Assembly: GCA_021739765.1 (NCBI GenBank)
Contig: JAIPBD010000013.1
Location: 62,001 to 126,000 of the forward strand
Length of the DNA: 64,000 bases
DNA from: Melioribacteraceae bacterium
GTDB lineage: Bacteria; Bacteroidota; Ignavibacteria; Ignavibacteriales; Melioribacteraceae
Direction: 5' to 3'
A program made the translations under genes and the position numbers. Below the pieces are notes generated by a model. It saw only the letters and a program-made list of their open reading frames with translations. It had not been told where the DNA came from and made no database searches. The first letter of the stretch is position 1; the number at the start of each line of letters is the position of its first letter. Positions 13,351 to 48,935 of this stretch are shown in pieces.

Positions 13351-13626
13351 ATGACAAAACTAATGACACTTGATGTTTTATCGAGCATAAAAGGTGCTAA
13401 ATCTTCCGATGCTGTTGATGAGTTATTTAAAGTAATTAAAAACGCTCATTTCGATAAGAACGAAAAAGTTTTTTCAAAATCGACAATCATAAATGCTGTT
13501 CTTTTGGAAAACTTGCGCGACGATGAAATTATCCAAAGTTCGCAGACTGAAAAAGAATTAATTAAGAAGAATTTCCCCAATGAGAAAAACGGCTTCCTCG
13601 TTGTTTCAAAAGTAATCGATAATTAA
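13351..13626 (+). CDS. gatC: GatC-like subunit of Asp/Glu-tRNA amidotransferase (divergent N-terminus)
   Basis: 91 residues. The C-terminal half matches GatC: AVLLENLRDDEIIQSSQTEK resembles the family's LREDEV block, and NEKNGFLVVSKVIDN resembles its usual GFFKVPKVIE ending. The N-terminal half lacks the clear helical pattern of typical GatC (usually 95-100 residues) and is hard to align. GatC wraps around and stabilises GatA and GatB. The gene ends three bases before gatA, the expected order. Identification rests mainly on the C-terminal motif plus position. Confidence 0.72.
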   Translation: MTKLMTLDVLSSIKGAKSSDAVDELFKVIKNAHFDKNEKVFSKSTIINAVLLENLRDDEIIQSSQTEKELIKKNFPNEKNGFLVVSKVIDN

Positions 13627-13628
13627 GC

Positions 13629-15041
13629 ATGTCCTCAGAAATAATAAGAATCCATAATAAGCTGAAAAGCAAAGAAATTTCCTGCACTGAATTCGTGAAA
13701 GGAAAATTAAAAGAACTTGAGGAGAGCACTTCAAATTCTGCTAATTTTTTATTAACTGAATCTGCTCTTAAACGGGCCCAAGCTGTTGATGAGAAAATTG
13801 CCAATGGAGCTGAAATCGGATTACTCGAAGGAATTCCATTCGGAATTAAGGATGTATTCTTGCTGCAAGGTGAGTTCGCTTCAGCCGCTTCGGATTTCCT
13901 GAAAAGTTACATCTCCCCTTATACCGCAACGGCCATTCAAAAATTAATCGACGCCGGCGCGATTCCGATTGTAAAAGAAAATTGCGATAGCTTCGGTCAT
14001 GGAAGCAGCAGTGAAAATACTGTGTTTGGTCCGGTAAAAAATGCCCTGAATGAAAAACTGGTTGCCGGAGGTTCAAGCGGCGGGAGCGCGGTTAATGTTG
14101 CAAAAGGATATACATTATTTTCCGTTGGGGGAGATACAGGCGGGTCAATTCGTCAACCGGCGGGATACAATAAAGTTTACGGAATGAAACCGACATACGG
14201 CAGAATTTCTCGTTATGGATTGATGGCATATGCTTCATCGACGGATTGTGTAGGACCGATTTCCAATAGTGTTGAAGACATTTCAACTTTATTAAATGTG
14301 ATGAGCGGAAAAGATTATCACGATCAAACCTCTTTGGTCTCGTCACCGATCTCTGAAAATATTTTCAAGAGGAAAAATGAAGCTCCAAAATACAAAATTG
14401 GCTATTATAAAAATTTTTTAGATAGCGAAGCAATTGATCCGAAAATAAAAGCCGACTTTCTAAAACTGATTGATCAATTAAAATTAAATAATATAGAAGT
14501 TATTGAACTTGATTTTTATGATTCCGGTATACTTGTATCAACATACTACACAATCGCAATGGCTGAAACAGCATCAAATCTTGCACGGCTTGACGGTACA
14601 AATTACGGAAATCGTTTAACCGCTGAATCTCTGAAAGAGAGTTACTCTTTAACCCGATCTGAAAATTTCACGGATGAAACCAAACGAAGAATTATCGGTG
14701 GCAATCAAGTTTTGTCGCAAGGTCATTCCGAAGAAATATATTTGAAAGCAAGAGCGATAAGAGAAAAAATTGAGCAAAGTTTTATTGACGAATTTCAGGA
14801 AGTGGATATAATTATTTCTCCGGTATCGCCAACCCCTCCTCCAAAAATTGGTGATAACTTAAACGATCCGTTAGCTATGTATTTATCCGATGCTTATACC
14901 GTAGGATTTAGTCTTGGTGGTTTACCAACACTTTCAGCGCCGTTCGGAACCGAAACGGGAATTCAAATTACCGCAGAAAAAATGGGAGAAGAAAAAATTC
15001 TCGAGTTTGTAATTTATCTCAGGGACGAAATTTATGGATAG
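13629..15041 (+). CDS. gatA: Asp-tRNA(Asn)/Glu-tRNA(Gln) amidotransferase subunit A
   Basis: Amidase-signature enzyme that releases ammonia from glutamine or asparagine for transamidation of mischarged tRNA. 470 residues, normal length. The Ser-cisSer-Lys triad is intact: Lys74 in GIPFGIKDVF, Ser149 in VAGGSSGGSA and Ser173 in GGDTGGSIRQPAG. It starts 3 bases after gatC and its last 8 bases overlap the start of the gatB-aspS fusion, so translation is probably coupled. With the fused AspRS next door, formation of Asn-tRNA(Asn) is the likeliest main task. Confidence 0.96.
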   Translation: MSSEIIRIHNKLKSKEISCTEFVKGKLKELEESTSNSANFLLTESALKRAQAVDEKIANGAEIGLLEGIPFGIKDVFLLQGEFASAASDFLKSYISPYTATAIQKLIDAGAIPIVKENCDSFGHGSSSENTVFGPVKNALNEKLVAGGSSGGSAVNVAKGYTLFSVGGDTGGSIRQPAGYNKVYGMKPTYGRISRYGLMAYASSTDCVGPISNSVEDISTLLNVMSGKDYHDQTSLVSSPISENIFKRKNEAPKYKIGYYKNFLDSEAIDPKIKADFLKLIDQLKLNNIEVIELDFYDSGILVSTYYTIAMAETASNLARLDGTNYGNRLTAESLKESYSLTRSENFTDETKRRIIGGNQVLSQGHSEEIYLKARAIREKIEQSFIDEFQEVDIIISPVSPTPPPKIGDNLNDPLAMYLSDAYTVGFSLGGLPTLSAPFGTETGIQITAEKMGEEKILEFVIYLRDEIYG

Positions 15042-18000
15042 GGAGAAATTACAGGAAGAGCTCGAATTCCATGGACTTGAAGTAGTAATTGGATTAGAAA
15101 CTCATATCCGCCTCAATACAAAAACTAAATTATTCTGTGCTTGTTCAACTGAAGAGAATGCTATCCCGAATGAGAATATTTGTCCGATTTGTACCGGTCA
15201 GATGGGAGTTTTGCCGGCAGTGAATAAAGAGGCGATCCGTAAAGCCATTTATTTTGGAAAAGCTGTTGAATCTAATATTAATGAAATGATTTCTTGGGAT
15301 CGAAAGCATTACGAATATCCCGATCTTCCTAAAAATTTCCAGCTTACACAATTTAGAAATCCTATTATTCCTGATGGAGTGGTTAGTTGTTATCGAGATG
15401 ATGGCTCAACATTTACGGTTGAAATCGAGCAAGTTCACATTGAAGAAGACGCGGCAAAATTGGTGCATGAAGTTGATCAAACTTTAATTGATTTTAACAA
15501 AGGCGGAGTTCCGCTCATTGAAGTTGTTACAAAACCTTGCATCAGCATTATCCGTGATGCTGCAACTTATGCGCAATACTTACAACGCATTGTTCAAAAC
15601 CTTGGAATATCTTATGCCAACCTTGAAAAGGGTGAGTTTAAGTCAGACGTGAGCGTCTCTTTGCGAAAGAAAGGGAGCAAGGATCTAAATCCCCGTGCAG
15701 AGATAAAAAACCTTAATTCGTTTAAGTTTATGATGGATGCCTTGAGCGAAGAAGTTGTTAAACAACTTGAATATTTTGTTGAGCACAAATCACCGCGTCC
15801 CGAGCAAATTACTGTACTTTGGGATGAGCATCTTAAGAGCACAAAAACGATGCGCTCCAAAGAATTTGCCGCTGATTATCGCTATCTGGCCGAACCGGAT
15901 ATTCCATTTGTTAATATTAAATCTGAAATCAATCAAATTGAAGTTGATATTGCCTTATTACCGTTTGCGATTGAAACCGCTTTAATTAAAGGCGGAGTGC
16001 TGCCCCAAGACGCTAAGTTTTTTACTTCGGATACGAATCGTTCGAAAATATTTAATGCCATAAACGAAAAAGTGAATGAGGCTGAGTTTGTAGCAAAGAT
16101 GCTGCTGAATAATATTCCAAATGATGAATATCATAAAATTAAGAGCCCGGATAAATTCAGTGAAATTTTTATACTATTTAAAAATGAGAAAATAACACCA
16201 GCGTTATTGAGGACAGCTATCCCCAAATTACTCGCTGACCCGGAATATGATTATAATTCATATTTTGATAATAGTACTATTACAGATCAACAAATAGAAA
16301 TTATTATAAGAGAAGTCTTAGCAAAGAATGACGCCATTGTGGCTGATATCAAATCCGGGAATACGAAAAGAATAGGGTCGCTGGTTGGCTCAGTTATGAA
16401 AAAAGTTCGCGGAGCCGCTTCCGGGAAGGTTATTCAGGAAAAAATACTATCTCAGATTTCCGGAGGAGCTAATTTAATCTCCAAAGAAATCAATGAAGAA
16501 AGTGATCGGCAAAAAAAGCAATCTGGTATAGAAGCCGCTCACGGCCTTAATGAAACCGATCTCGAAAATATTAAAAACGTTGTAAAAGAAAATTATCGAA
16601 CCCACAGAATTTGTGATATCGATGAAACGTTTGTTAGGGAAACCGTAACTCTAGCCGGATGGGTTTCCAGTATAAGAGATCATGGTGAATTGGTTTTTAT
16701 AGATCTACGGGATACAAGTTATGAGATATTCCAAATCCGATTGCACAGAACAAACTTTCCGGATATTGATTCACTCGCGAAACTGAAACCCGAATCGGTG
16801 ATTCTCGTGGAAGGGAAAATTATCGGAAGGGAAACTGATGATTTTAATCCCGGAATAAGAACAGGAAAATTAGAACTTGATACCACTCATTTAGAAATAT
16901 TAAACAGAGCAAAGACTTTACCCTTTGAAATCAAGCGTGCGCTAAAAACTCAAGAAAATGTAAGATTTAAATATAAATTTTTGGATCATCGCGGAGCGGA
17001 AATACGGAAAGCTCTTGTAAACCGGCATCGAGTTATTAAATTGATTCGGGACATTCTCGATCAGAAAGATTTTATTGAAGTTGAAACACCAATACTTTCG
17101 GCGGGCACTGATGAAGGTGCTCGTGAGTTCATCGTTCCAAGCAGAAAATTTCCGGGCAAATTTTATACTTTGCCCCAAGCTCCCCAGCAATTCAAACAGA
17201 TGCTTATGGTTGGCGGATTCGAAAGGTACTTTCAGATTGCGAGATGTTTCCGGGATGAGGATTCCCGCGGCGATCGCCAGCCTGAATTTACCCAGTTGGA
17301 TATGGAGCTTTCATATATTAGTATGAAGCAAGTTATCGAACTTAATACAGATTTATTTATTGAAATTGTAAATAAAATATACGGCAAAAAATGGAAGTTA
17401 TTTCCGTTCACAATTCTGACTTATAAAGAATCGATGCAACGATACGGAACCGATCGGCCTGATCTGCGATATGGGTTGGAAATGATTGATATAACTGAAA
17501 AAGTTAAAAAGACATCATTTAATGTTTTTAAGAAACCAATTGAGCAAGGGGGAATAGTTAAATGCATTAATCTTGAGGGTAAACTTTCGCCGAAACGTGT
17601 TTCAAAAAAACAGATTGAAAAATTAACGAGGATTGCCCAAGAAAATGGGCTTGGCGGTTTGGCTTACATAATTGTAAACGAAAATGATTTACAATCGCCA
17701 TTAATCAAATATCTTGGTGAAGATGTCGCGGAAAAAATTATTGAAAAATCAAATGCAGTTCCAGGCGATATTGTTTTCTTTTCGGCAGCAGATGAAAAGA
17801 CGGCAAATAAAGCTTTGGATGCCGTTCGCCAGGAAATGGCGGCTATGTTAAATCTGGTAAAACCAAATGAGTTACATCCGGCCTGGGTTATTGATTTCCC
17901 TCTATTTGAAAAACTTGATGAAGGTGGATGGACTTTCTCTCACAACCCTTTTTCGATGCCAAAAGTTGAAAATTTGATCAACCATCTTAACGGGGAAAAT

Positions 18001-18366
18001 ATTGGGGAAATAATTTCTCAGCAATACGATCTCGTATTGAACGGATATGAAATTGGCGGCGGTTCGATTCGTGCCCATAAATCAGAGATTCTTGAAGCTA
18101 CTTTTCGGAATATGGGCTACAGCAAAGATGAAATGATGAAAACAATCGGACACATGCACGAAGCATTTCAATTCGGCGCTCCTCCACATGGTGGAATTGC
18201 CTGGGGCATTGACCGGCTAATTATGATATTGGAAAAAAAATCATCAATCCGCGATGTTATTGCTTTTCCCAAAACCGGTTCGGGTGAAGACCTGATGTTT
18301 GGAAGCCCGTCAGAATTGCCAGAAGCGAAAATACATGAAGCGAATATTAAATCAATAATTGAATAA
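15034..18366 (+). CDS. gatB-aspS: GatB fused to aspartyl-tRNA synthetase
   Basis: One uninterrupted 1110-residue frame with two complete enzymes. Residues about 14-480 are GatB: GLEVVIGLETHIRL, zinc cysteines 35, 37, 50 and 53, and the C-terminal YqeY-like tRNA-binding helices ending near KVIQEKIL. A hydrophilic linker (about 481-514) leads to a full bacterial-type AspRS: OB-fold anticodon domain (520-615), class II motif 2 RCFRDEDSRGDRQPEFTQLD (738-757), a GAD insertion domain (about 838-935) and motif 3 GIAWGIDRLIMIL. AspRS residue 550 is His in the RDHG loop, the state reported for non-discriminating enzymes such as that of Pseudomonas aeruginosa; discriminating E. coli AspRS has Leu. This predicts Asp-tRNA(Asn) made and amidated by one polypeptide plus GatA and GatC. 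Confidence 0.95.
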   Translation: MDREKLQEELEFHGLEVVIGLETHIRLNTKTKLFCACSTEENAIPNENICPICTGQMGVLPAVNKEAIRKAIYFGKAVESNINEMISWDRKHYEYPDLPKNFQLTQFRNPIIPDGVVSCYRDDGSTFTVEIEQVHIEEDAAKLVHEVDQTLIDFNKGGVPLIEVVTKPCISIIRDAATYAQYLQRIVQNLGISYANLEKGEFKSDVSVSLRKKGSKDLNPRAEIKNLNSFKFMMDALSEEVVKQLEYFVEHKSPRPEQITVLWDEHLKSTKTMRSKEFAADYRYLAEPDIPFVNIKSEINQIEVDIALLPFAIETALIKGGVLPQDAKFFTSDTNRSKIFNAINEKVNEAEFVAKMLLNNIPNDEYHKIKSPDKFSEIFILFKNEKITPALLRTAIPKLLADPEYDYNSYFDNSTITDQQIEIIIREVLAKNDAIVADIKSGNTKRIGSLVGSVMKKVRGAASGKVIQEKILSQISGGANLISKEINEESDRQKKQSGIEAAHGLNETDLENIKNVVKENYRTHRICDIDETFVRETVTLAGWVSSIRDHGELVFIDLRDTSYEIFQIRLHRTNFPDIDSLAKLKPESVILVEGKIIGRETDDFNPGIRTGKLELDTTHLEILNRAKTLPFEIKRALKTQENVRFKYKFLDHRGAEIRKALVNRHRVIKLIRDILDQKDFIEVETPILSAGTDEGAREFIVPSRKFPGKFYTLPQAPQQFKQMLMVGGFERYFQIARCFRDEDSRGDRQPEFTQLDMELSYISMKQVIELNTDLFIEIVNKIYGKKWKLFPFTILTYKESMQRYGTDRPDLRYGLEMIDITEKVKKTSFNVFKKPIEQGGIVKCINLEGKLSPKRVSKKQIEKLTRIAQENGLGGLAYIIVNENDLQSPLIKYLGEDVAEKIIEKSNAVPGDIVFFSAADEKTANKALDAVRQEMAAMLNLVKPNELHPAWVIDFPLFEKLDEGGWTFSHNPFSMPKVENLINHLNGENIGEIISQQYDLVLNGYEIGGGSIRAHKSEILEATFRNMGYSKDEMMKTIGHMHEAFQFGAPPHGGIAWGIDRLIMILEKKSSIRDVIAFPKTGSGEDLMFGSPSELPEAKIHEANIKSIIE

Positions 18367-45446: not shown

Positions 45447-48400
45447 CTATATATCCATCAATTCTATTTGAAAAGTTGTTTGGTTGTTTTCAATTGATTC
45501 CTTCAAAAAGATATTGCCATTATACTTTTTGAGTATTTCTCTGCTGTTATAAAGTCCGCTCCCGGAGCTTTGAAATCTGCTAAATCCCAGATCAAAGATT
45601 TTTTCTCGATCATTTTTACTAATGCCAATACCGGTGTCGCTAAATTCTATAATCGTTTTGGGTGAATAACGATAGATCAAAATATTGATGATTTTGTTTT
45701 GAGTTGTCGCTAACGCTTTTATTGAATTCGCGAATAAATTGTCGATTATATTTGCGAGTTCTATTTCCTTTATCAAAACATCATGATTTTCGCGCAGCTC
45801 ACTTCGGAATTTTACTTTAATAAAATTGCTCGCCAGATGTTCACCGGAATTCTCAATCAACTTTTGAATTATATCAATTGGTGAACATGAGTTCTGAAGA
45901 AATACCGACTCCTTTATTTCCGCCAATTTATCCTTTATTATTTTTAAGGATTTTGAGAGTGTCGAAAAATCTAATGCCGGATCAAAAGAGTTGGAAAAGT
46001 TTGAAATTGAAGTAGTTGCAAAAATGTTGGCATCGTTTAGAGTGTTTGCCGCAGAATTGTGTTCTTTTATTTTTAATAATATTTTTAACAATTTTTCGAT
46101 GTTCGGCGAAGTTAGCTCGTTATAAGTTTTTGCCCGTTTTAATAACTTCTGAATAAAATCGTCATCTCTGCATAATTGAGGGGTAACATTTTCGGTAAGC
46201 AATATTAAGCTGTTTATATTTCGTAAAGCCCATTCGCCATGTGTGAACTGAAGCAGAATTGTTAAAAGTTCATCTGAGCGATTTTTATCAAAGATAAGGG
46301 GATTTTTCGCGATCCAGACAAAAAATAGATTCGGAATTATTATCCCGATGGAGGAAAGGATAAAAGGCAAAACAAAAATCGCGAAATCAGATTTTGAGTT
46401 TAAATTTAAAAGATAAATTACCCAGAAAAGACTTAAGTTAACGGCAACCAAGCCGGCAATAAGTTTGTAATCCCAGTCGAATTTATCTGCACCATGCTTA
46501 ATGCCGAGTGATATAACCAGAGCAGTAAGCAGAAAAGAGAGGAGTGTAAAAACAAAATTTAGGGTGAGAATATTTTTAACAAGCATACCGAAAAAATTAT
46601 AAGCCGAGGTTGTAATTGAATTGTTATTTGGCAGTATGACCAATTTGCCCGCGTCTAATGAATTCAATTCCATCTTGCTTCCATCGGTGAATTCAATCAA
46701 TGCATTGACGGAAATTGCGTCTCCTAAACCAAAATGAATTGTTGAATAATTTGCGTTGGCTCTCCCCGAATTTTCCGTACCAAGTTGTTTGTAAGCAATT
46801 AACTTATTCGAATTTTCGCCCGGAATATTTTCGAAGAGAGAAATTTTGCAGCCGTTAATTAATTGAGAAGTAGCGTCGTTGCCACGTGAAAATTTCAAGT
46901 AGTTTTTGTTATCAAGATTATTTATCCAAAGTTTGTTTTTAGCACTTGTTGTTCCAAAAATATCAATATCACCGTCGCCGTCAGCATCAAACGAAACAAT
47001 ATTATTTACAAATGGATCATCGAGGTTAAATGCTTTTGTGAAATCTTCGAATCTGTTTCCATCAATATTGAGCATTAACAAATTTTCTAACATACCGTTT
47101 CTGTTCGTTGATAAAAACAGATCCGAAAAACCATCATTGTTGTAATCGGCAATCGAAATATTTATATCCATATACAAATCACCGCGAAATCTTGGGATTC
47201 TAAACCCGACGGAATCTGAGATATCGCGGAAAAATCCAGTACCATTATTTTCGAACAGTTGAATGAAATAATTATCGCTCGCGGTTACTAGATCGAGATC
47301 GCCATCATTGTCAAAATCAAACGCACAGGCAGCGAAACATTCTGTTTTCTGCGGATTATTAAAGCGCGATTCGCTTTCATCCTGGAAAAAATCACCATTC
47401 CAAATCAGTAGTTTGTTCGTTCTCCATTTATTCGCGATGTACCAATCAAGATCACCGTCATTATCAAAATCGGCAAATAAGGATTTTACATTCCAGCCGG
47501 ATGTAATCTTTGTAAAGGAAGTATCAAGTTTAAAATCTAAGCCCCAATAATTATTAAAATAAATTAGCTCAGCTCCTTTTTCGCCATTCGGACCATAATA
47601 GTAACTGACGCAAATATCAGGATCACCGTCCGCATCAATATCAACGGAATTAAGATTAGAAGGGTTTTGTTTCGCATAATTGTCAGGAATTCTAAAAAGT
47701 TCGATTGCAGGAGCTTTTTGTTGCGGCGCAATTCTTAGTGACTTTATCGTTACGCCTAAGGAGTCGAACTTCGAAAAGATAATTTTGGACATGCCTTCGT
47801 TGTTAAAATCACAACCAATCATTTTTGGAAGGATATAAGCATTTTTGGAGTCATAAATTTGGTTTGAGCTAAAAGGTGAATTATTGTTATTTGAAAAGAG
47901 CTCGAAATAGGCATAGTTGTACGAATTATTTAGTACCAGATCATCAAAGTTGTCGTTGTTATAGTCGAGTACAATAACACCGAGGTTTGATACTCCAATT
48001 GCACCTTCTAATCCGAATTTTTCTGCAAGCTCATAAAAGCTATTATGTGATTTTTCGGATGAAAGATATAATTCTCCGGTTGTGGTAAGAATTATAATTC
48101 TACTGCTATCAAGATTAGCAATATTCGAAATATTAAAATTTTGGTATAAATTAATTTCCTTTCGATAAAAATCCTTGGATAGAGAAGTTATTCCAACCTC
48201 GTTTCGCCTATATAATTTATGACTTTCGACCTTCTTGGCGTAGGTTTTTACAAAACGAACTCCATTAAACTTATACTCGTTTTGTTTTGCATCAACAACT
48301 AATATCGTACTATCAAGATTGTGAATACCTGCAATATCGCCTCCTAAGGGATCCGCAAAATCAATTTTACGAATCTGCTTTCCGTCAAAATGAAAAACAC

Positions 48401-48935
48401 CATCATATTTTGTGGCTAACCAAAGATCATTTTCGTTTTCAAGATAGTGGGTGGTGAAGTGGCTTTTTGTCGGGGATTCAATTTCAGTCCAGTCCGAGTT
48501 ATCGAAAACAAAGAAACGACCAAAATTGGCAGGCGCGTAAATTAAATTATCCTTTACATGAATTACTTTCGTCAGAGGAATGTCAAACACTTTGCTTTGT
48601 TTTTCCCATTTACGATCCTTGAAACGATAAACATGAGTGCGCCAAGTTGTATCGGTTCCAACCAACATTAATACGTTTTTATTCAATCTCTGAATTTGAA
48701 TATAGGATGAACTTTCGTCCACCGGAGAAGCAAAAAACTCAACTTTGTCATCTGAAAAAAATGCTGTTTCTCCTTTTATATTTCTTATCCAAATATTATT
48801 CGATGAAATCGGGTATATAAATTGACCTTGATGAATGTTCGTTTTTGCAATTAATTGCCAATCATAAAATTGCGCCCGCGTTGTGGAGGAAAGAAGAAGA
48901 AAAAACACAAAGATGGATATTAAAGTCTTTTTCAC
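45447..48935 (-). CDS. Giant sensor histidine kinase with extracellular FG-GAP/UnbV-like ectodomain
   Basis: 1162 residues. Signal peptide (1-21), a beta-propeller-like region (about 25-300), then at least five calcium-type FG-GAP/VCBS repeats (VDIDADGDPDICVSYY, DFDNDGDLDWYI, DFDNDGDLDLVTAS, DYNNDGFSDLFLS, DADGDGDIDIFG), and a UnbV/ASPIC-like segment (about 730-770, HFGLGDAISVNALIEFTDGS). Three membrane helices (about 783-812, 824-845, 852-876) follow. The cytoplasmic part has a helical dimer region with His899 in QFTHGEWALRNINSL as the only H-box candidate, not canonical, and an ATPase domain: N box IIDNLFANSIKAL, G1 FSDTGIGIS, G2 SSGSGLYNSREIL. Probably senses an extracytoplasmic polymer or calcium-bound ligand. 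Confidence 0.9.
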   Translation of the reverse strand: MKKTLISIFVFFLLLSSTTRAQFYDWQLIAKTNIHQGQFIYPISSNNIWIRNIKGETAFFSDDKVEFFASPVDESSSYIQIQRLNKNVLMLVGTDTTWRTHVYRFKDRKWEKQSKVFDIPLTKVIHVKDNLIYAPANFGRFFVFDNSDWTEIESPTKSHFTTHYLENENDLWLATKYDGVFHFDGKQIRKIDFADPLGGDIAGIHNLDSTILVVDAKQNEYKFNGVRFVKTYAKKVESHKLYRRNEVGITSLSKDFYRKEINLYQNFNISNIANLDSSRIIILTTTGELYLSSEKSHNSFYELAEKFGLEGAIGVSNLGVIVLDYNNDNFDDLVLNNSYNYAYFELFSNNNNSPFSSNQIYDSKNAYILPKMIGCDFNNEGMSKIIFSKFDSLGVTIKSLRIAPQQKAPAIELFRIPDNYAKQNPSNLNSVDIDADGDPDICVSYYYGPNGEKGAELIYFNNYWGLDFKLDTSFTKITSGWNVKSLFADFDNDGDLDWYIANKWRTNKLLIWNGDFFQDESESRFNNPQKTECFAACAFDFDNDGDLDLVTASDNYFIQLFENNGTGFFRDISDSVGFRIPRFRGDLYMDINISIADYNNDGFSDLFLSTNRNGMLENLLMLNIDGNRFEDFTKAFNLDDPFVNNIVSFDADGDGDIDIFGTTSAKNKLWINNLDNKNYLKFSRGNDATSQLINGCKISLFENIPGENSNKLIAYKQLGTENSGRANANYSTIHFGLGDAISVNALIEFTDGSKMELNSLDAGKLVILPNNNSITTSAYNFFGMLVKNILTLNFVFTLLSFLLTALVISLGIKHGADKFDWDYKLIAGLVAVNLSLFWVIYLLNLNSKSDFAIFVLPFILSSIGIIIPNLFFVWIAKNPLIFDKNRSDELLTILLQFTHGEWALRNINSLILLTENVTPQLCRDDDFIQKLLKRAKTYNELTSPNIEKLLKILLKIKEHNSAANTLNDANIFATTSISNFSNSFDPALDFSTLSKSLKIIKDKLAEIKESVFLQNSCSPIDIIQKLIENSGEHLASNFIKVKFRSELRENHDVLIKEIELANIIDNLFANSIKALATTQNKIINILIYRYSPKTIIEFSDTGIGISKNDREKIFDLGFSRFQSSGSGLYNSREILKKYNGNIFLKESIENNQTTFQIELMDI

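Follow-up and report, generated by a model that had tools for sequence, protein, structure and literature searches.

A widespread gatC-gatA-gatB::aspS cassette of Bacteroidota encodes a GatB-aspartyl-tRNA synthetase fusion and is probably a covalently tethered asparagine transamidosome

The asparagine transamidosome of Pseudomonas aeruginosa (PDB 4wj3) is assembled from GatC, GatA, GatB and an aspartyl-tRNA synthetase (AspRS) bearing a GAD domain, in an organism that, according to PMC6523644, lacks both asparaginyl-tRNA synthetase (AsnRS) and asparagine synthetase. The same components are encoded on a 64,000-nucleotide stretch of a Melioribacteraceae genome (assembly GCA_021739765.1, contig JAIPBD010000013.1, positions 62,001 to 126,000), the whole of which we refer to as the window. 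AspRS and GatB are separate chains in P. aeruginosa, whereas in the window they form one polypeptide, encoded at positions 15034-18366 of the forward strand. The 4wj3 chains were among the matches to the GatA, GatB and AspRS parts of the window, with a His at the same position of the anticodon-binding domain. Unlike P. aeruginosa, the window's host has an AsnRS and a second AspRS. We consider it likely that the cassette carrying the fusion, gatC-gatA-gatB::aspS, is transferable and encodes an asparagine transamidosome with a covalent tether, by which asparagine is formed on tRNA(Asn) in place of synthesis by a dedicated asparagine synthetase.

In its set of enzymes the host resembles Thermus thermophilus and Deinococcus radiodurans, which have two AspRS together with AsnRS, glutaminyl-tRNA synthetase (GlnRS) and GatCAB, and in which the second AspRS makes asparagine in a tRNA-dependent manner (PMC4206432); the window's second AspRS is of the bacterial type, with a GAD domain, and is fused to GatB. 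Bdellovibrio bacteriovorus, as described in that paper, has a non-discriminating AspRS, AsnRS, GlnRS and GatCAB, is without asparagine synthetase and makes its asparagine on tRNA; unlike the window's host, it has a single, unfused AspRS. The survey text of PMC4206432, covering 547 genera, names only Deinococcus-Thermus, Actinobacteria and Clostridiaceae as groups with an extra AspRS, and calls its acquisition rare. The same text leaves open why GatCAB is retained by bacteria that possess AsnRS, a question on which the cassette bears.

Covalent joining of AspRS to a GatCAB subunit has a precedent in the AspRS-GatC fusion of NCBIfam (NF009460 / PRK12820), which differs from the window's protein in the subunit concerned and in the reverse order of its parts, GatC following AspRS. 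Against NF009460 the window protein scored 486 bits (cut-off 1379), and it gave no match to the GatC domain (PF02686). A 704-residue AspRS-GatC fusion, followed by gatA and gatB, was found in Acetoanaerobium noterae (L182:3908-6019, NZ_CP154629.1); it also stays below the NF009460 cut-off (641 bits), has Leu at the position referred to below as His31, and represents the opposite covalent solution, in Clostridia. In Mycobacterium smegmatis, a GatC-GatA fusion resembles the window's in that parts of GatCAB are joined within one polypeptide, and differs in that no synthetase is involved; PMC7541841 describes it as a laboratory-selected mutation that raises mistranslation. The original prediction had treated a GatB-AspRS fusion as of a kind not known to have been described. 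The asparagine transamidosome made of separate proteins is well known, but we found no description of its covalent GatB-AspRS form in the literature searched, outside the scope of which most subscription papers lay, nor in the relevant passages of PMC3927822 and PMC4826098. To this extent the claim held; it has to be qualified by the AspRS-GatC precedent and by the fact that the fusion is widespread and not a single find. Automatic database names for GatB-AspRS proteins may well exist.

The fusion is a single open frame of 1110 codons that starts with ATG and contains no internal stop. It is the third gene of the cassette, which as a whole is the unit to be described (Table 1): gatC and gatA are separated by 2 nucleotides, and the 3′ end of gatA overlaps the start of the fusion by 8 nucleotides. 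Each of the five Pfam domains of the fusion protein scores above the Pfam curated cut-off, and both halves pass their NCBIfam models (435 bits for GatB with PRK05477.1-2, cut-off 338; 708 bits for AspRS with PRK00476, cut-off 443). The open reading frame and the Pfam and NCBIfam matches thus confirm what had been predicted at these coordinates, an unbroken frame with two complete halves, in which a complete GatB and a complete bacterial-type AspRS are joined into one polypeptide by a variable linker about 45 residues long. GatA could be aligned to solved GatA chains.

Table 1. Positions of the cassette genes and of the domains of the fusion protein in the window
Feature	Positions	Strand	Evidence or remark
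gatC, 91 residues, divergent	13351..13626	+	NCBIfam TIGR00135, 21.3 bits; tblastn relatives in 79/80 loci
gatA, 470 residues, glutaminase/amidase subunit	13629..15041	+	Pfam Amidase, 390.8 bits
gatB::aspS fusion, 1110 residues	15034..18366	+	one open frame; Pfam and NCBIfam
GatB catalytic domain, residues 17-299	15082..15930	+	GatB_N PF02934, 313.6 bits
GatB YqeY tail, residues 339-474	16048..16455	+	GatB_Yqey PF02637, 61 bits
Linker, residues 475-521	16456..16596	+	poorly conserved between fusions
AspRS anticodon-binding oligonucleotide-binding (OB) fold, residues 538-622	16645..16899	+	PF01336, 40.8 bits; contains H550
AspRS class II catalytic core, residues 641-1081	16954..18276	+	tRNA-synt_2 PF00152, 355.2 bits
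GAD insertion domain (mark of bacterial-type AspRS), residues 832-928	17527..17817	+	PF02938, 80.4 bits

A scan of one genome per species (84,980 species) yielded at least 572 stretches encoding a relative, of which the best 80, all from named genomes, were used as loci. All 80 match the window fusion over its full length, and each carries it as one intact open frame of 1107-1122 residues; some of these loci come from isolates, and one, of Polaribacter sp. BM10 (L013), lies on a complete chromosome. A GatA frame lies immediately upstream of the fusion in every locus, as in the window. The one locus with no gatC relative detected (L052) is a contig that ends inside gatA. Beyond the gatC-gatA-fusion cassette, the neighbouring genes differ among the lineages of these 80 loci. 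The alignment of the fusions comprised 84 rows; since L153 (genome G202) and L041 have identical coordinates and are apparently the same genome, these represent at most 83 distinct genomes.

Across 83 aligned fusion rows the linker measures 40-50 residues, and its mean pairwise identity is 0.33, compared to 0.87 for GatB_N, 0.70 for the GatB tail and 0.84 for AspRS (1500 random pairs). That its length is kept and its sequence poorly kept suggests that the tether is retained for its presence and not for its sequence. In-frame ATG, GTG and TTG codons are all absent from codons 470-540 of the window fusion, which leaves no start at the junction for translation of the AspRS half by itself. In the loci, where only ATG was checked, the linker region contains this codon in 7 of 80 cases, and in none of the seven is it preceded by a Shine-Dalgarno-like stretch. 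An internal start giving free AspRS was rejected on these grounds.

Four residues of GatA, K74, S149, S150 and S173, which we take to be the Lys-Ser-Ser catalytic residues of the amidase, are kept in 80 of 80 aligned GatA sequences (79 loci and the window). The GatB half has cysteines C35, C37, C50 and C53, presumably zinc-binding and invariant in 83 fusion rows, and the same is true of Q715, K721, R740, E742, D747, R1013 and R1061 of the AspRS half, whose roles we assume to be catalytic. The 84th row (L008) was checked at seven positions, the four GatB cysteines, H550, N971 and D693, and agrees with the others at each. H550 is a His in 84 of 84 rows; it aligns with the position of His31 of P. 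aeruginosa AspRS, a marker associated with non-discriminating AspRS. The host's separate AspRS has Leu at this position. The partner AspRS of other fusion genomes have Lys (16), Leu (2) or Phe (1) there, and His in no case (19 readable of 20 fetched; L212, with no readable AspRS, was dropped). A His in the fusion facing a non-His partner fits a division of labour between two AspRS, although the residue alone is no proof of one. The AspRS half also differs in its loop GTDEGAREF (74 fusion rows compared, ten loci having been dropped by the motif filter) from the S[TS]PEGARD[FY] of the 27 standalone AspRS examined. A further motif, HNPFSMP, is common to the fusions and one group of 11 standalone AspRS.

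The window's genome (4.54 Mb, 99.8% complete) encodes four class II synthetases of the aspartate, lysine and asparagine (D/K/N) group, namely a separate AspRS of 590 residues, the fusion, a lysyl-tRNA synthetase (LysRS) and an AsnRS, in addition to one GlnRS and one glutamyl-tRNA synthetase (GluRS). Given the separate AspRS and AsnRS, the fusion adds a second AspRS to the host and would provide one of two routes to Asn-tRNA(Asn). No second GatB was found in this genome, the fused GatB being the only one, and there was no match to AsnA. Separate copies of the genes had been suggested as a way to judge the fusion: an independent aspS and asnS are indeed present, a second gatB was not found, and the fused gene, far from being a decayed copy beside intact ones, has its key residues in place. 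The view that the fusion forms a built-in transamidosome stands as the best reading of the fusion, its residues and its genomic context, tempered by a host that also has complete, separate AspRS, AsnRS and GlnRS.

The host tRNA(Asn) (L095:1501-1573), the only tRNA(Asn) looked at in this respect, has U1 paired with A72, the GatCAB determinant according to PMC4206432 and PMC9976931. The tRNA set was drawn from 150 of 342 first-look candidates that were scored, and assembly gaps are likely. Among the 30 of its 37 matches whose loci were read, tRNA-Asp and tRNA-Ile are absent; the remaining seven are long (82-89 nucleotides).

The fusion belongs to a widespread Bacteroidota family with a scattered distribution. 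In a sample of 393 genomes of the phylum, the full-length fusion was present in four: the window's genome and three (G154, G202 and G381) of a single family, f31. In all four the fused GatB is the sole GatB. G202 shares its coordinates with the genome of L041 (Flavobacterium sp. HJJ), and the fusions of G381 and G154 group in the tree with those of Polaribacter and Flavobacterium, from which we infer that f31 is Flavobacteriaceae. A GatB match was found in 317 of the 393 genomes, in most cases as a separate protein of about 485 residues among the matches listed. Within f31, GatB matches were confined to the three fusion carriers; none of the remaining 42 members is among the 317. The fusion was absent from the 104 other genomes of the window's class, 100 of which have a GatB match. 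The window fusion shares 65-66% identity with the copies of the three f31 genomes and falls within a single fusion clade. The simplest account of a gene present in four of 393 genomes of the phylum and none of 104 in the class is that the window's lineage probably gained it horizontally.

To relate the cassette to asparagine synthesis, we compared 37 distinct fusion genomes with the 42 fusion-free f31 genomes as controls. The 37 comprise the host of the window, the other three carriers in the phylum sample and 33 more reached through 34 of the 80 loci, G202 being repeated. Within the fusion genomes, a separate AspRS (exception: G408, a metagenome-assembled genome, MAG), an AsnRS-like protein (recognized solely from its length and score in all genomes but that of the window) and a GlnRS above cut-off were each present in 36 of 37. 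AsnA was above cut-off in 1/37, and 21/37 had neither AsnA nor AsnB above cut-off. All 42 controls had at least one of the two (AsnB in 41, AsnA in 3). The contrast was sharper for one type of AsnB, recognized by a split match (about 1-385, then 437-517 or more pieces) in frames mostly of 528-588 residues, which was seen in 40 of 42 controls vs. none of the 37 fusion genomes. We call this the E. coli type, since 5/5 control proteins of this pattern that were tested pass PRK09431, the E. coli AsnB model (703-921 bits, cut-off 499). None of nine AsnB-like proteins from seven of the 16 AsnB-bearing fusion genomes does so, the match being known for five of them only as weaker than E 1e-80. One control (G386) has an AsnB-like protein that fails PRK09431, and has AsnA instead.

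For the presence of AsnA or E. coli-type AsnB, the three fusion genomes of f31 differ from its 42 fusion-free members with a Fisher p of 7e-5, and within the single genus g87, two fusion genomes with neither contrast with 23 fusion-free genomes with one or the other (p = 0.003), relatedness being ignored in both tests. The pattern of gene presence thus supports the idea that the cassette would serve asparagine synthesis in place of AsnB and AsnA. In one fusion genome, that of Flavicella marina 2A-7 (L037, G413), no AsnRS-like protein was present among three D/K/N matches (AspRS, the fusion and a LysRS-like protein); barring an assembly gap, the fusion would be the sole route to Asn-tRNA(Asn) in this organism.

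We propose that the AspRS half would load aspartate onto tRNA(Asn). Because of the conserved residues, GatB, together with GatA and GatC, would then be expected to activate the tRNA-bound aspartate and to amidate it, glutamine supplying the ammonia. Through the linker, some 45 residues long, both active sites would stay on one particle, a form of channelling in which release of the mischarged tRNA would be unnecessary. The separate AspRS would charge tRNA(Asp) and AsnRS would use free asparagine whenever available, the job of the cassette being de novo synthesis of asparagine on tRNA. Since GlnRS is present in all but one of the fusion genomes, Gln-tRNA should not need the GatCAB of the cassette, and the amidotransferase needs a source of Asp-tRNA(Asn), for which the fused AspRS is the obvious candidate. 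With the fused GatB the sole one in its genomes and no GatB match in the 42 controls, f31 has no other visible GatCAB to act on Asp-tRNA(Asn). Transamidosomes known to date pass the mischarged tRNA from one separate protein to another; a covalent AspRS-GatB would make this hand-over directly testable through the linker. If the proposal is right, a transferable cassette seems to have replaced a dedicated asparagine synthetase in many Bacteroidota, where asparagine would then be made only on tRNA, and predictions of asparagine auxotrophy for genomes without AsnA and AsnB would have to be corrected.

Other explanations can be set against these data. An error of sequencing or assembly, or decay of the gene, is refuted as an explanation by the independent genomes: the fusion is intact in all 80 loci, some of them from isolates and one from a complete chromosome, and its key residues are invariant. 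We give this explanation practically no credence. The fused AspRS could instead be an ordinary, discriminating spare in a functionless accidental join, with GatCAB acting on some other mischarged tRNA such as Glu-tRNA(Gln). The host does already have an AspRS, and its tRNA(Gln), like its tRNA(Asn), has U1-A72. On the other hand, nearly all fusion genomes have a GlnRS above cut-off, the fusion and its gene order are kept in 80 loci along with the length, though not the sequence, of the linker, and a spare enzyme gives no reason for the association with missing AsnA and E. coli-type AsnB. We regard it as very unlikely. A role for the cassette in making Asn-tRNA(Asn) mainly as a condition-specific backup to AsnRS for translation, and not for asparagine biosynthesis, would agree with the AsnRS-like genes of 36/37 fusion genomes and with the AsnB-like gene above the generic cut-off (267 bits) in 16/37. 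A mere backup would, however, not be expected to track the loss of asparagine synthetases, and the fusion genomes have E. coli-type AsnB in none and AsnA in one of 37, vs. 40 and 3 of the 42 fusion-free relatives, which makes this role unlikely as well.

A number of observations weigh against a tethered transamidosome that makes the cell's asparagine. The 16 genomes with an AsnB-like gene count here too: the PRK09431 comparison covered seven of them, an AsnB-like gene of another type is retained in each of the three f31 fusion genomes sampled, and the window's own host has three AsnB-like proteins above the generic cut-off, none of which passes PRK09431 (328, 288 and 322 bits) and which might offer another route to asparagine. 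Two of the 21 genomes counted as having neither enzyme (G404 and G416) have AsnB-like matches at 188 and 196 bits. The locus-derived genomes, selected for their resemblance to the window protein, are non-independent and biased to one family, and many are drafts or MAGs whose completeness is not stated. Within the cassette, the gatC product falls below the TIGR00135 cut-off (47.1 bits) and has no Pfam match, and GatA reaches 440 bits with NCBIfam TIGR00132, where the cut-off is 481.1. The AlphaFold2 model of the fusion (mean predicted local distance difference test score, pLDDT, 67; predicted template-modelling score, pTM, 0.43; linker pLDDT < 50) is of too low quality to support a fold search or to show how the domains are arranged, and adds nothing on mechanism. 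Lastly, the standalone AspRS 6wom has Lys at the His31 position in the structure alignment; it resembles the staphylococcal AspRS, which we take to be non-discriminating, so that H550 proves neither relaxed nor strict specificity. The Lys of 6wom and the survey of partner AspRS led us to drop His31 as proof of relaxed tRNA specificity.

Within the transamidosome reading, the fused AspRS may be specialised for tRNA(Asn), as a dedicated Asp-tRNA(Asn)-forming enzyme found only inside the tethered transamidosome, spread horizontally with it and displacing asparagine synthetase. GluRS2, which serves tRNA(Gln), is an analogous dedicated enzyme. The separate clade of the fusion AspRS, its long stem, the GTDEGAREF loop and the separate AspRS in 36 of 37 hosts leave room for such a specialisation, which we put forward tentatively and hold to be rather doubtful.

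The ancestry of the AspRS half was examined in a quick, unrooted tree in which long branches are flagged and the nearest standalone clade to the fusions is left open. A branch of its own sets apart each of three groups, the 31 fusion AspRS, the 16 standalone AspRS of the Leu type and the 11 of the His type, and the fusions are long-stemmed; on this basis we rejected an origin of the fusion AspRS by duplication of the host's own AspRS. Other origins were discarded as well. No close relative was present in viral_contigs, which speaks against a phage or viral origin, and no PADLOC match pointed to a defence system. Only one plasmid record and one phage record cover at least 80% of the query in one place, and in these aspS, gatA and gatB are unfused. 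MT835487.1 (L183), which is labelled Bacteriophage sp. and has the three genes separate, is more likely bacterial than phage DNA.

A few minor observations concern the standalone proteins. The 11 His-type AspRS, from families f27 and f40 (L156, L158-L160, L164, L167, L173, L174, L177, L178 and L180), form a clade of their own with His at position 31 and HNPF; together with the Leu/HHPF clade they make two types of standalone AspRS in one phylum. Many surveyed genomes have two GatB matches. In seven genomes of the window's class (G116, G294, G160, G172, G196, G345 and G369) the sole GatB match is very divergent (E 8e-45 to 5e-51, vs. about 1e-116 or better in the other 93) and perhaps represents an unidentified GatB-like family. 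Elsewhere in the window, positions 45447-48935 of the reverse strand encode a protein of 1162 residues with FG-GAP repeats and a C-terminal ATPase domain of the histidine-kinase type.

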